64,000 nucleotides of DNA from Syncephalis plumigaleata. Lineage: Eukaryota; Zoopagomycota; Zoopagomycetes; Zoopagales; Piptocephalidaceae. The stretch covers positions 620,001 to 684,000 of the forward strand of contig JAIXMF010000004.1 in the NCBI GenBank assembly GCA_025201365.1. The letters run 5' to 3'. The notes beneath the pieces are model-generated. The model saw only the letters and a program-made list of their open reading frames with translations, ran no database searches and was not told where the DNA came from. Below are positions 25,936-59,603 of this stretch, one piece after another. Position 1 is the stretch's first letter. Every line of letters begins with the position of its first letter. A program made the position numbers and the translations under genes.

Positions 25936-27185
25936 ATGAAGTTCTCTCCGTTATCGCTATTGCCGTCGTCGTTGTCGCTGTCGCCAGTCTGGTTGCCGTT
26001 GAAGCTAGTCCCGCTTGGAACGTCGTGGTATGTCTGGCCGTGACCCTATCAATTGATGTACTAATCGTAGTTTATGTTTCATTGTCCACGGATGATTACC
26101 GATAGCCGTAAGTTCATGTATATTAATGGTTGTTTTGACATGTAATCACGTTGCAATGGTTATTCTACCTATCAAATTGTTAGCTCAAAACAGTAAGTTG
26201 CTTTATTGTTATAACAAGTACTATGCTAATCATAATATAAATTAAATCATACGTGCTGCCATTTATAAGGAGATGTAAGTTATCATTTCGATCATAATGA
26301 CGGAATACTAACCACAATCTGTTACACGATTCGTATACTTGTTTATCACAGTGCGTAGGTTACCATTCTGATGGCAATAAATGACGTACTAATTATGATA
26401 TTGCCCATGGTCCACATATGTTTATGTATAACAGAACGTAAGTTACTATTCCGATCATGATACCTGATGTACTAATATCAACGGGGCTCATTATCCACCT
26501 ACGTTCATGTATGATAGTTTGTAAGTTATCATTACAATTGTAATCTATGAATGAATAATAATCAAGCTATGACATATGATTCACGTATGTTTTTCGTATG
26601 ATAGGGCGTAAGTTATCATTCTGACTGCAATATGTGGATGTACTAACTGTTATGTGGTACGCAATCATCTATATTTCTGTATAACATGATGTAAGCTATC
26701 ATTCTGACTACAATGTATCAATATACTAATTACGCTATGGCACATTATCCACGTATGTTCGTGTATGATAGCGCGTAAGTTATCATTCTGACCGTAATTT
26801 GCGTCACGCTAATTATAATATGCACACGATCTATATATGTTTCTGTATGATAGGATGTAAGTTAACATTCTTACCGTAGTGAATGAGATACTAATAGTAA
26901 TATGACACATGATTTCCATACATTTGTGGATAACAGTGCGTAAGTTACTATTCCCAATGATAACGTATGAGTGTATTGATATTAATATGGCACACGATCC
27001 ACATACGCACACGTATAGTAACCCGTAAGTCATTATTTCAATCGTCATCTACGATATATTAATCACAATACAATCCACGTTAATTGAATGATAGGAAGGA
27101 TAAGCGGTAAATAATAATCCACAATAATCATACCATACTAATCCATTATGCTACAGAACAAGACAAGGACATCATCATCAAGTAG
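25936..27185 (+). CDS. Secreted protein B: putative micro-exon gene
   Basis: Exon 1 (25936-26027) encodes a signal peptide. With one T restored near 25941 it reads MKFLSVIAIAVV and ends LVAVEASPAWNVV, paralogous to gene A. From 26028 the sequence becomes a chain of intron-like segments. Candidate exons: 26106-26107 (CC), 26184-26192 (CTCAAAACA), 26270-26274 (GAGAT), then TGC 26352-26354, AAC 26435-26437, TTT 26518-26520, GGC 26605-26607, CGC 26772-26774, GAT 26854-26856, TGC 26937-26939, TAACCC 27019-27024, GAAGGATAAGCG 27095-27106, and a last exon from 27157. Joined this way the frame stays open to TAG at 27183-27185. With acceptor 27104 instead (2-nt exon CG) the last exon reads in another frame, open to about 27320. 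The exon chain is inferred from splice signals only, and its true 3' end is open. Confidence 0.5.
26275..27106 (+). repeat. Tandem array of about 83-bp intron-like units with 3-nt linkers
   Basis: Donor positions are 26275, 26355, 26438, 26521, 26608, 26691, 26775, 26857, 26940, 27025 and 27107, a spacing of 80-87 nt. Each unit starts GTAAGT (or GTAGGT, GTAAGC). Most carry TACTAAY or a near relative 30-50 nt in, and end in TGTATGATAG or TATAACAG. Exactly three nucleotides usually separate that AG from the next GT. Unit middles differ strongly from one another, yet the splice signals are kept. Two earlier, more diverged units start at 26108 and 26193. The unit beginning at 26608 ends ATAACATGAT and lacks the AG. 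Confidence 0.85.
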
Positions 27186-27499
27186 ATATTATAGGTATTC
27201 AAGTCAAGAATGTATTGATGCAAGACCCTTTAGTGTCCATGCATTCAAGTCATTATTCCTTGGACAAAACTATATCTACAAGTCCCTTGGTCTATTCATC
27301 CATGGTCCTATTACATGAATATCAATCATTATTGAATAAACATGTGATATTAACTACACTCTGCTGCATTAATCTTTTCATTCCATCATCGATACTTGTA
27401 TTGCTAGTGGCATTAATGTTCATTAGTACAATTATTGCATGCTAACATCTTCGGCAATACTATATCAGTCATTTATTATCGGATTGCTTCCCTCCTTCT
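27186..27499. other. 3' flank of the micro-exon gene
   Basis: It may be 3' UTR or an alternative reading of the last exon. From 27157 one frame is open for about 55 codons and another to 27445, the latter ending in a hydrophobic stretch. An AATAAA-bearing block lies near 27330. Only transcript data can decide. Confidence 0.35.
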
Positions 27500-38476: not shown

Positions 38477-39905
38477 ATGACTGCTGCTGCTTTCCACAAT
38501 AATAACTATAGCAACGGTACTACTAGTACTACTGCTTGCAAACAACAATGAGGATCGTAATCAACGTCCAGCCAATGTTGGTATACTCGCCATGGACATT
38601 TACTTTCCAAAAACGTGTGTCGACCAAGCTGAACTAGAGAAACACGACGGTGCCTCGACTGGAAAGTACACGATTGGTCTAGGACAAACGAAAATGGCCT
38701 TTGTTGATGATCGTGAGATATCCACTCCATTTGCTTGACGGTGGTCAGTTCCTTATGGAAAAGTACGGCATCGCCTACACTGATATTGGTCGTTTGGAAG
38801 TGGGCACCGAGACCATCGTGGATAAGAGTAAATCGGTCAAGTCCGTGTTAATGCAACTATTCGCGGATAGTGGCAACTTCAACGTGGAAGGTATTGACAC
38901 GACCAATGCTTGCTACGGTGGCACGAATGCATTGTTCAACGCCATCAACTGGGTCGAGTCCTCGTCGTGGGATGGTCGTCTAGCCTTGGTGGTAGCGGGT
39001 GATCTCGCCATCTACTCCTCGGGTAGTGCTCGTCCTACTGGTGGTGCGGTGCAGTAGCCATGCTTATAGGACCTAATGCTCCCGTGGTGATTGAGCATGG
39101 TGTACGTCACACGCATATGGAACATTTATACGACTTTTACAAGCCGGATCTCTCCTCGGAATTCCCCGTCGTGGATGGTGCACTTAGTGTAGCCTCTTAT
39201 CTCAAGTCATTCGATACTTGTTACGAGGGTTACATCAAGAAGTTGGAGAAGAAACTCGGCGTACACCATGCCAACATCGACCTGATCGACTACTTCGTGG
39301 GACATTCACCGTTCACGAAACAAGTACAAAAGGCGGTGGCTCACATCTCGATGGTTGACTTTAAGCGTGATCCTAACAACGAGATTTACAACTCGGTACG
39401 ACAAGCGTATCTCGACGTGCCCATCTCGCAATCCTACACGGACAAGGTGATGGAACGAGCATTCGTCGCTATCTCCAAGGATATCTACAAGAGCAAGGCG
39501 GACACGGCATTGTATGCGGCAAAACAGATTGGTAACATGTATTGCGGTTCTGTTTACGGTGGTCTAGCCTCTCTATTGTCACAAGCATCGAATGCCGATT
39601 TGTTAGGCAAGCGTATCACTCTATTCTCGTATGGTTCCGGTTCTGCCGCTAGTATGTTCTCATTTAAGGTGGTGGACGACACCTCGAACATTGCACAACA
39701 GTTGAACATTGTGGAACGACTTGCCTCACGTGTGGATGTACCTCCCGTTGAATACGAGAAGGTAATGGAACTACGAGAGAAGACGCATCAACTACGCTCG
39801 TACACTCCCGTTGGTGATTTGAATAATCTCTTCCCGGGTACATTCTATCTCGAACACGTAGATGATATGTTCCGTCGACGATACAGCCGTACACCATTGG
39901 CCTAA
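38477..39905 (+). CDS. ERG13: Hydroxymethylglutaryl-CoA synthase
   Basis: It contains [20 protein letters not shown] near the N terminus, the catalytic Cys in [15 protein letters not shown], the loop [19 protein letters not shown], and the active-site His region [15 protein letters not shown]. It ends with the usual [20 protein letters not shown]. The enzyme condenses acetyl-CoA with acetoacetyl-CoA, the committed step towards mevalonate. No introns are needed. The frame breaks near 38540, 38717 (one G short), 38752 (one C short) and 39049 (one G short); restoring these single bases gives the textbook protein, so the gene is almost certainly intact in the organism. Confidence 0.93.
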
Positions 39906-58399: not shown

Positions 58400-59410
58400 T
58401 TACACTCCCTTTGCGTCTATGACAGCGCGAATTCTTTTTGGCATACTGTTGTAATAACGTTGGCACTCCTCCTTGGTGAAAGAAGTCCACTCTTTGTCGC
58501 ATCTTTCCCAGAGTTCATGCACTCCTTTAGCTCTTGTAGGATAGGCAGCGAGTTTGAGTTTCAAATGATGCCACAAGTGTTCAATTGGGTTTAAATCCGG
58601 GCTCTGTGCAGGCCAGTCTTCCAGCACGCCGATCTCCATCTCCTTTATCCACGCTTTTGTTGCGTTAGAACGGTGTTTTGGGTCATTATCGTCTTGAAAA
58701 TACATTTCTTTCCAATCCATATTATAGAATATCATGGTTTCTTTAAGCGTTGAACCAAGAATATAGATGTAGTCTTCCGATTTCATAGTTCCATCGTATA
58801 TCTGACATCCATAGCCTGGTCCCTCGTAAGTCATACAGCCCCACATCATCAAGCTTCCACCGCCATGCTTAACTGTAAAATCAATGTGGTGAGGTTTAAG
58901 TTCATCACCAGGTCTACTCCAATAGAATTTACAGCCATCTGAGCCCCAAACATTGATTTTTGTCTCGTCAGAGAACACTACTCTCTTCCAATCATCAATG
59001 GTCCAGTGCTCGTGGCGTTTGGCCCAGGCAAGTCGCGCTGCCCTGTGCTTTACAGACAAAAATGGCTTCTTCTTTTTTATAGCACTCTGGAAGTTCATTG
59101 ATTTGAGTACATTTGCTGCTGTTTTAACTGACAATTTGTATCCCATCTTCGCTAGTTCTTCATGAACATCCACAGCGGTAAGTAGTTCCCCCTGTAGTAC
59201 CTTCCTACGGATGACTGACTTGGTACAATCAGACACAATAGCAGGTCTACCAGCTGCATTACGCTTGCGGTTCGGGAACCACTTGCGAGAGTATTTTGAA
59301 ATCACCCCCTTAGACACTTCCAATCTTTTCGCAATAACTGCAACGGGTGTATCGCTCATCAGCAGCACTTTCATGTCCATACACACATCAGCGGGGAGTT
59401 GACGTACCAT
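58400..59410 (-). CDS. Tc1-like transposase (DD35E)
   Basis: 336 codons from the ATG at 59410 (MVRQLPADVCMDMKVLLM); the frame is open up to 59530 but Tc1 transposases are usually about 340 residues. Two helix-turn-helix parts lie in the first 120 residues, with a GRPR-like GRPAIVS between them. Catalytic residues: Asp in VVFSDETKINVWGS, Asp in MYFQDDNDPKHRSN, and Glu in SPDLNPIEHLWHHL. I count 35 residues between the second Asp (of QDD) and the Glu, against 34 in classical Tc1. It catalyses cut-and-paste transposition at TA sites. No internal stops or breaks. Confidence 0.95.
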   Translation of the reverse strand: MVRQLPADVCMDMKVLLMSDTPVAVIAKRLEVSKGVISKYSRKWFPNRKRNAAGRPAIVSDCTKSVIRRKVLQGELLTAVDVHEELAKMGYKLSVKTAANVLKSMNFQSAIKKKKPFLSVKHRAARLAWAKRHEHWTIDDWKRVVFSDETKINVWGSDGCKFYWSRPGDELKPHHIDFTVKHGGGSLMMWGCMTYEGPGYGCQIYDGTMKSEDYIYILGSTLKETMIFYNMDWKEMYFQDDNDPKHRSNATKAWIKEMEIGVLEDWPAQSPDLNPIEHLWHHLKLKLAAYPTRAKGVHELWERCDKEWTSFTKEECQRYYNSMPKRIRAVIDAKGV

Positions 59411-59603
59411 TTTATAATGAAATATTCGAAGAATAATAGAAAGAACAAATGTAATCATTTTATGTAATAAAGTTAGCCTCTTTATAGTTCTTTTTACCCT
59501 TAAAGTGCACAGCTGTTTACATTTAACCATTTATATACATTATTACACGTTTTTATTAAATAAAAATTGATTAATGTTAGAAATTAGAAAATATTTTCGT
59601 CAT

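Follow-up and report, generated by a model that had tools for sequence, protein, structure and literature searches.

Syncephalis plumigaleata appears to carry a large family of small secreted-peptide genes with most mature residues on individual 3-nt exons

Introner elements and tandem intron duplication multiply many similar introns in a genome, and the bicycle genes of aphids are characterised by a paired-cysteine motif. The micro-exon genes (MEGs) of schistosomes are 35 genes for secreted parasite proteins, with a signal peptide and many short, mostly symmetrical exons (PMC10526429); each gene has 10-20 exons, introns are 0.1-5 kb long, and the exons, mostly of 15 bp, range over 6-81 bp in the body of the paper and 3-81 in its abstract. 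PMC9168663 describes the bicycle genes as fast-evolving putative effectors with an average of ~17 exons, the small internal ones in phase 2. Isolated exons of 1-3 nt can be spliced, as described for Arabidopsis APC11, Fusarium CYP621A and plant and Drosophila microexons (PMC4674806, PMC12940212, PMC8831610, PMC8042270). Syncephalis itself, of the Zoopagales and Piptocephalidaceae, is placed among the mycoparasitic Zoopagomycotina in a review (PMC10386755).

Judging from its genome sequence, S. plumigaleata appears to carry a large gene family for small secreted peptides in which most mature residues each have their own 3-nt exon. As in a schistosome MEG, a putative signal-peptide exon is followed by many short symmetrical coding exons, but the Syncephalis exons are mostly of 3 nt, with up to about 50 per gene, and the introns are ~80 nt long and paralogous to each other, which sets them apart from the MEG descriptions. 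No sequence relation to MEGs emerged from the Pfam search of 12 members or from the protein matches listed. The family also resembles the bicycle genes, as far as the accessible description of these goes, in comprising fast-evolving putative effectors with many tiny internal exons in the same phase. However, its array exons lie in phase 0, not phase 2, and no array of 3-nt exons alternating with repeated introns appears in the passages on bicycle genes that were consulted (PMC9168663). While the 1-3 nt exons in the accounts consulted stand singly within ordinary genes, Syncephalis appears to have tens of them in a row. Similar introns are multiplied here as they are with introner elements, but what Syncephalis copies is an intron plus one codon, in tandem and inside one gene family. 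By analogy, the family may work like a micro-exon effector family; its predicted architecture differs in that it is the intron that is repeated, with a single codon as the module. Neither a gene of consecutive 3-nt exons nor the Syncephalis family was recognised among the open-access papers covered by the search.

The window, that is the whole 64,000-nt stretch of contig JAIXMF010000004.1 that was analysed, holds a copy of the family. It is highly likely that this copy is a degraded member of a large, dispersed and diversifying family encoding secreted, probably Kex2-processed disulfide peptides from tandem units of an intron plus one codon. Its parts are as follows.

25936..26027 (+): exon 1, signal-peptide exon, largely out of the family frame
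26028..26105 (+): intron 1, GTATGT..TACTAAT..TAG; its first 38 nt fit the family intron-1 pattern with 0 mismatches
26106..26107 (+): exon 2, 2 nt
26108..26183 (+): intron 2
26184..26192 (+): exon 3, 9 nt
26193..26269 (+): intron 3
26270..26274 (+): exon 4, 5 nt, brings the phase to 0
26275..26351 (+): intron 4, with which the tandem array opens
26352..26354 (+): 3-nt exon TGC (Cys)
26355..26434 (+): intron 5, GTAGGT donor
26435..26437 (+): 3-nt exon AAC (Asn)
26438..26517 (+): intron 6
26518..26520 (+): 3-nt exon TTT (Phe)
26521..26604 (+): intron 7
26605..26607 (+): 3-nt exon GGC (Gly)
26608..26687 (+): intron-like unit 8, 3' end not AG, probably unusable (placed by eye; bridged differently in the chain model)
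26688..26690 (+): triplet GAT in register, probably skipped (acceptor missing)
26691..26771 (+): unit 9, GTAAGC donor (placed by eye)
26772..26774 (+): 3-nt exon CGC (Arg)
26775..26853 (+): intron 10
26854..26856 (+): 3-nt exon GAT (Asp)
26857..26936 (+): intron 11
26937..26939 (+): 3-nt exon TGC (Cys)
26940..27018 (+): intron 12
27019..27024 (+): exon TAACCC, stop in the array frame
27025..27094 (+): intron 13
27095..27106 (+): exon GAAGGATAAGCG, counterpart of the relatives' stop-bearing last coding exon
27107..27156 (+): 3' UTR intron, GTAAAT..TACTAAT..CAG (placed by eye; the chain model preferred the acceptor at 27194)

The first-pass annotation had described a tandem array of intron-like units behind a signal-peptide exon, and this is borne out: the signal exon at 25936-26027 is followed by 14 such units starting at 26028, of which 13 are 70-84 nt long and the last is 50 or 88 nt depending on the acceptor. 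The spacers it had listed (TGC, AAC, TTT, GGC, CGC, GAT, TGC) are present, and most gaps in the array are of 3 nt. The open frame it had traced from 25936 to 27185 could not be confirmed, since an acceptor at 27018 gives an exon, TAACCC, with a stop in the array frame; TAACTC likewise carries a stop in relatives L023 and L050. Exon 1 is 92 nt in this copy versus 94 nt in 40 of 43 other parsed loci and exon 2 is 2 nt versus 3 nt in other parsed loci, and therefore most of the signal peptide of the window copy lies in another frame. Furthermore, the unit preceding GAT at 26688-26690 has a 3' end without AG. The window copy has probably decayed or been mis-assembled; intact copies of the family are present elsewhere in the genome. 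A structured RNA family was rejected, a search of the window against Rfam having given nothing at gathering scores. Elsewhere in the window, an HMG-CoA synthase lies at 39060-39905 and shares 100% identity with a deposited Syncephalis protein, and an ORF at 58400-59530 on the minus strand has Tc3-type HTH and DDE_3 domains and is Tc1/mariner transposase-like.

When the region was compared with its own genome, at least 133 matches were found, 40 of the 264 candidates having been scored. With up to 3 mismatches allowed, the genome has 83 copies of the exon-1/intron-1 junction pattern versus 0 of the reversed control; these include near-duplicates on short contigs, so that distinct genes are fewer. 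The unit junction TATRAYAG-NNN-GTAAGT occurs 1057 times versus 2 for the reversed pattern, and no stop was seen among the triplets of the first 100 of these 1057 places, read by eye. Unit-junction matches also extend over 4 kb at C1:1411445-1415630 with no match to the exon-1/intron-1 pattern nearby, and arrays with another head may therefore exist. Every organism-named protein match, among the matches listed, is from Syncephalis, and those with BDF22DRAFT tags are from S. plumigaleata. A known domain or solved relative was ruled out: a Pfam search of 12 family members gave no match at E 0.01, and the two PDB sequence matches had E values of 0.11 and 0.86.

For segmentation, the 39 best matches to the window array, five loci from the junction list and the window copy gave 45 loci, of which 44 were parsed, L058 being left out as its first junction is absent. 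The chain model used dynamic programming over donor, branch and acceptor weight matrices, required GT or GCAAGT and AG, and was given a flat exon-length prior of 1-30 nt that was blind to reading frame; the matrices were first trained on introns preceding 3 nt and a donor, which brings some bias toward such units. It placed 1122 introns and 1078 internal exons in the 44 loci, and 941 of the 1078 exons were exactly 3 nt. From 203 control starts (the rest of the window on both strands and the antisense of family loci) it produced 18 exons, none of 3 nt, and the mean score was 18.6 bits per intron in family loci versus 3.6-6.9 in controls; chance splice motifs as the source of the array were ruled out by these control chains. 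The predicted family introns have the canonical U2-type features of GT donor, branch motif and YAG acceptor, GT/GC and AG being imposed by the model and the rest not. A branch-like motif is present in 1079 of 1122 introns versus 13.8% of shuffled segments, with the branch also scored by the model. Information content across 844 array units is 1.5-1.9 bits at donor positions 3-6 and 0.03, 0.05 and 0.12 bits at the three positions of the exon; what is conserved in the repeat is the intron, and what varies is the codon. The longest run is of 45 consecutive 3-nt exons, in L044 and its near copy L047. In L025, L029, L033, L037 and L040, TGG codons precede GCAAGT, forming GC-AG introns within arrays.

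After removal of eight near-duplicate loci, 737 3-nt exons remained, which include a single stop versus 21.5 expected from base frequencies (Poisson P 1e-8), the lone stop triplet lying in L062, a short copy. On this depletion a non-coding satellite was rejected. All 20 amino acids are represented. Once joined, the exons of 32 of the 44 loci form an ORF that starts at the ATG of the signal peptide, passes through Arg-Arg and stops in either of the last two exons. The remaining 12 (the window copy, L022, L024, L025, L027, L030, L042, L054, L057, L059, L060 and L062) are in some cases frame-broken, in others cut by a contig end or foreign sequence, and some are perhaps mis-parsed. In L022, an array resembling that of L031 breaks off after an ATG codon into unrelated sequence, possibly through an insertion. 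Array exons lie in phase 0, and most translations show a hydrophobic leader and RR. The complete ORFs have 905 internal exons, of which 804 are of 3 nt. The absence of in-frame stops from their 840 codons follows by construction and is not a test, and 25 of the 32 are also stop-free in one of the other frames. Seven of the 32 are near-duplicates, and the 25 distinct complete genes have four Cys in 12 cases, two in four and none in nine, but never an odd number. A CC pair is found in 15 of the 32 complete ORFs, and all 15 have exactly four Cys (C-CC-C type). The array of L066 (C1:1742300-1744000) spells ALKAKAKAKL, with single-codon AAG and GCC exons by turns, and probably arose by expansion of a two-unit repeat.

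Codon choice in the arrays also bears on splicing, since YAG, a false acceptor, arises wherever a codon ending in CA or TA meets the G that begins the donor. Among codons of the six NYN four-fold boxes, those with such an ending number 3 of 163 in the arrays versus 161 of 527 ordinary codons (P 3e-18). This P value is indicative only, as the units share ancestry, so that it overstates their independence, and as the reference set is small, consisting of four long window ORFs. As a matched control, in the GGN and CGN boxes, in which an A ending cannot give YAG, A-ending codons are 17 of 83 in arrays versus 47 of 193 ordinary (P 0.54, with the same kinship among units). CAG accounts for 0 of 20 Gln codons in arrays versus 19 of 70 ordinary ones, and G-ending codons in four-fold boxes are also rarer (7/246 versus 129/720), while TTT and TAT are strongly favoured over TTC and TAC. 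The avoidance of YAG-forming codons points to selection for accurate splicing.

Of 27 database relatives, three share array residues with the prediction at the score cut. P0121 (BDF22DRAFT_685685) repeats 41 residues predicted for L036 with 6 missing (...PPIHWKD-KTYEMHFENGKGCMFSNG--PGWISPSD-IGPVQ...), P0124 (BDF22DRAFT_685769) repeats 41 predicted for L044 with 5 missing (...NPINGSMDYVYWKPIVPGYWGPIN-GL-CY-TPSMEK-ECAPEK), and P0133 partially matches the prediction for L035; these three deposited models could have been made ab initio. Another three of the 27 match a downstream stretch only, and P0122, on the L026 contig, has a few predicted residues and then runs into other sequence. A further 42 relatives (P0138 and P0140-P0180) comprise P0155 from S. 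plumigaleata and others from 'jgi' and 'ena', which are presumably environmental. Environmental gene calls generally ignore introns. A pattern for a direct read into intron 1 is matched by 10 of the 42; others continue unbroken. RRAPQ, which is created by the joining of exons 1-3 in genes including L028, L038 and L053, is uninterrupted in P0142, P0147, P0149, P0150 and P0162. In P0139, P0142, P0156, P0162 and P0172 a similar signal peptide sits atop long uninterrupted predicted bodies, so that intronless genes may have the signal exon in common with single-codon-exon genes. The first-pass proposal of a secreted-peptide gene with one residue per exon thus gains support from family-wide stop depletion, terminal in-frame stops and even Cys counts, together with the splice-tuned codon avoidance, the partial match to deposited protein models and the uninterrupted RRAPQ of some relatives.

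The visible diversity is between gene copies within one genome. Unit alignment revealed gains and losses of whole units between the paralogs L028/L051, L053/L055, L030/L038 and L043/L053. L029 and L032 form a mosaic in which intron identity is 61-89% over the bulk of the array but rises to 95-99% at its tail, in two mid-array units and in the first intron. L034 and L048 differ at 12 of 94 bases of exon 1 and at 0 of 75 bases of the 3-nt exons, which suggests that signal exons have been exchanged between genes. Divergence was binned by unit pairs picked with their exons masked, the pairs not being independent.

Intron difference 0.000, exon divergence 0.008: 83 unit pairs, 1 of 83 differing in the exon
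Intron difference 0.010, exon divergence 0.023: 71 unit pairs
Intron difference 0.028, exon divergence 0.109: 55 unit pairs
Intron difference 0.052, exon divergence 0.199: 52 unit pairs
Intron difference 0.112, exon divergence 0.237: 132 unit pairs
Intron difference 0.158, exon divergence 0.329: 395 unit pairs
Intron difference 0.213, exon divergence 0.603: 1778 unit pairs

These bins put the rate of codon change at about two to four times that of the flanking introns, consistent with diversifying selection. The binning is preferred over a separate comparison of 13 locus pairs since the latter were hand-chosen after similar exon chains had been noticed; that comparison is weak and not relied on. 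In it, five near-identical pairs had 2 exon differences versus 8.9 expected from introns, seven more diverged pairs had 42 versus 20.4, and the thirteenth, L054/L059, with 0 of 12, lies outside both sums.

As parsed, an intact member begins with a signal-peptide exon, usually of 94 nt, ending at a dibasic Arg-Arg, followed by a few short exons, in most cases of 3, 3-12 and 2-5 nt in that order, and by 4-45 consecutive 3-nt exons of one phase-0 codon each, divided by paralogous introns of ~80 nt with GTAAGT, TACTAAY and YAG. A stop-bearing exon and then a 3' UTR intron follow the array. What the sequence itself shows is a repeat of introns, exons of one codon, constraint on coding and a hydrophobic leader whose end is dibasic. 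We propose that the spliceosome would take out each short intron sequentially by intron definition, so that the coding sequence is built codon by codon. The product would enter the secretory pathway, where a Kex2-type protease could cut after Arg-Arg, and the cysteine types may fold with one or two disulfides. Comparison of the copies suggests that recombination between similar introns makes an array grow, shrink or mix, and that single residues would thereby be gained, lost or swapped with the frame kept. On balance we favour an architecture in which exon equals codon: the tandem introns would act as recombination spacers and the codon as payload, single residues could be inserted, deleted, swapped or accelerated as modules with the frame kept, and the result would be a genome-encoded combinatorial library of secreted disulfide peptides, possibly with extra variety by skipping. 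From lifestyle, secretion and diversity, the likely use would be in the fungal-host interaction, as an effector or toxin-like repertoire.

It could be argued that the whole array is spliced out in one piece as a long intron, or that it is a non-coding repeat whose splice sites are decoys, such that the triplets never appear in protein. The decay of the window copy and the hypervariability of the exon triplets (0.03-0.12 bits) are in keeping with this, but it is very improbable given 1 stop in 737 triplets against 21.5 expected, a terminal stop in frame in 32 of 44 loci, the exclusively even Cys counts of 25 complete genes and the match of triplet residues to deposited models. If the triplets are translated, splicing might still be deliberately leaky, with the skipping of 3-nt exons yielding in-frame peptide variants from one gene and variety as the purpose. 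Skipping any 3-nt exon is frame-neutral, some units have weaker donors (GTAGGT, GTGAGT) or GC-AG introns, and single residues are missing from the deposited models; nevertheless, the conserved splice signals and the avoidance of YAG at junctions imply selection for accuracy, and the even Cys counts suggest full inclusion, so we regard purposeful leakiness as decidedly unlikely.

The variability of the codons could also reflect a targeted mutational process that alters them, as opposed to selection on ordinary mutation and recombination. Some codons differ at 2-3 of 3 bases between flanking introns that are both 96-100% identical (for example in L032/L046 and L026/L033), in keeping with such a process, but at flank divergence below 1% just 1 of 83 unit pairs has an exon difference, so that nothing very rapid has to be invoked and positive selection suffices; we give the targeted process very little credence. 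As for function, the peptides might serve self/non-self recognition or mating signalling within Syncephalis instead of host attack. A signal peptide, a dibasic site and short diverse peptides fit pheromone-like signals, whereas 83 heads and the C-CC-C type in 15 of 32 complete ORFs suit a repertoire over a single signal; we consider such a role within Syncephalis fairly unlikely.

If cDNA confirms the predicted splicing, the spliceosome can faithfully assemble a message from tens of consecutive 3-nt exons, with consequences for the question of intron versus exon definition and for how small an exon can be. Introns would then have a simple evolutionary role, that of keeping single codons apart as spacers for recombination, and the family would offer a natural system for residue-by-residue peptide diversification. 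It would also expose a secreted-peptide family of an early-diverging mycoparasite, one that annotation seems largely to miss.
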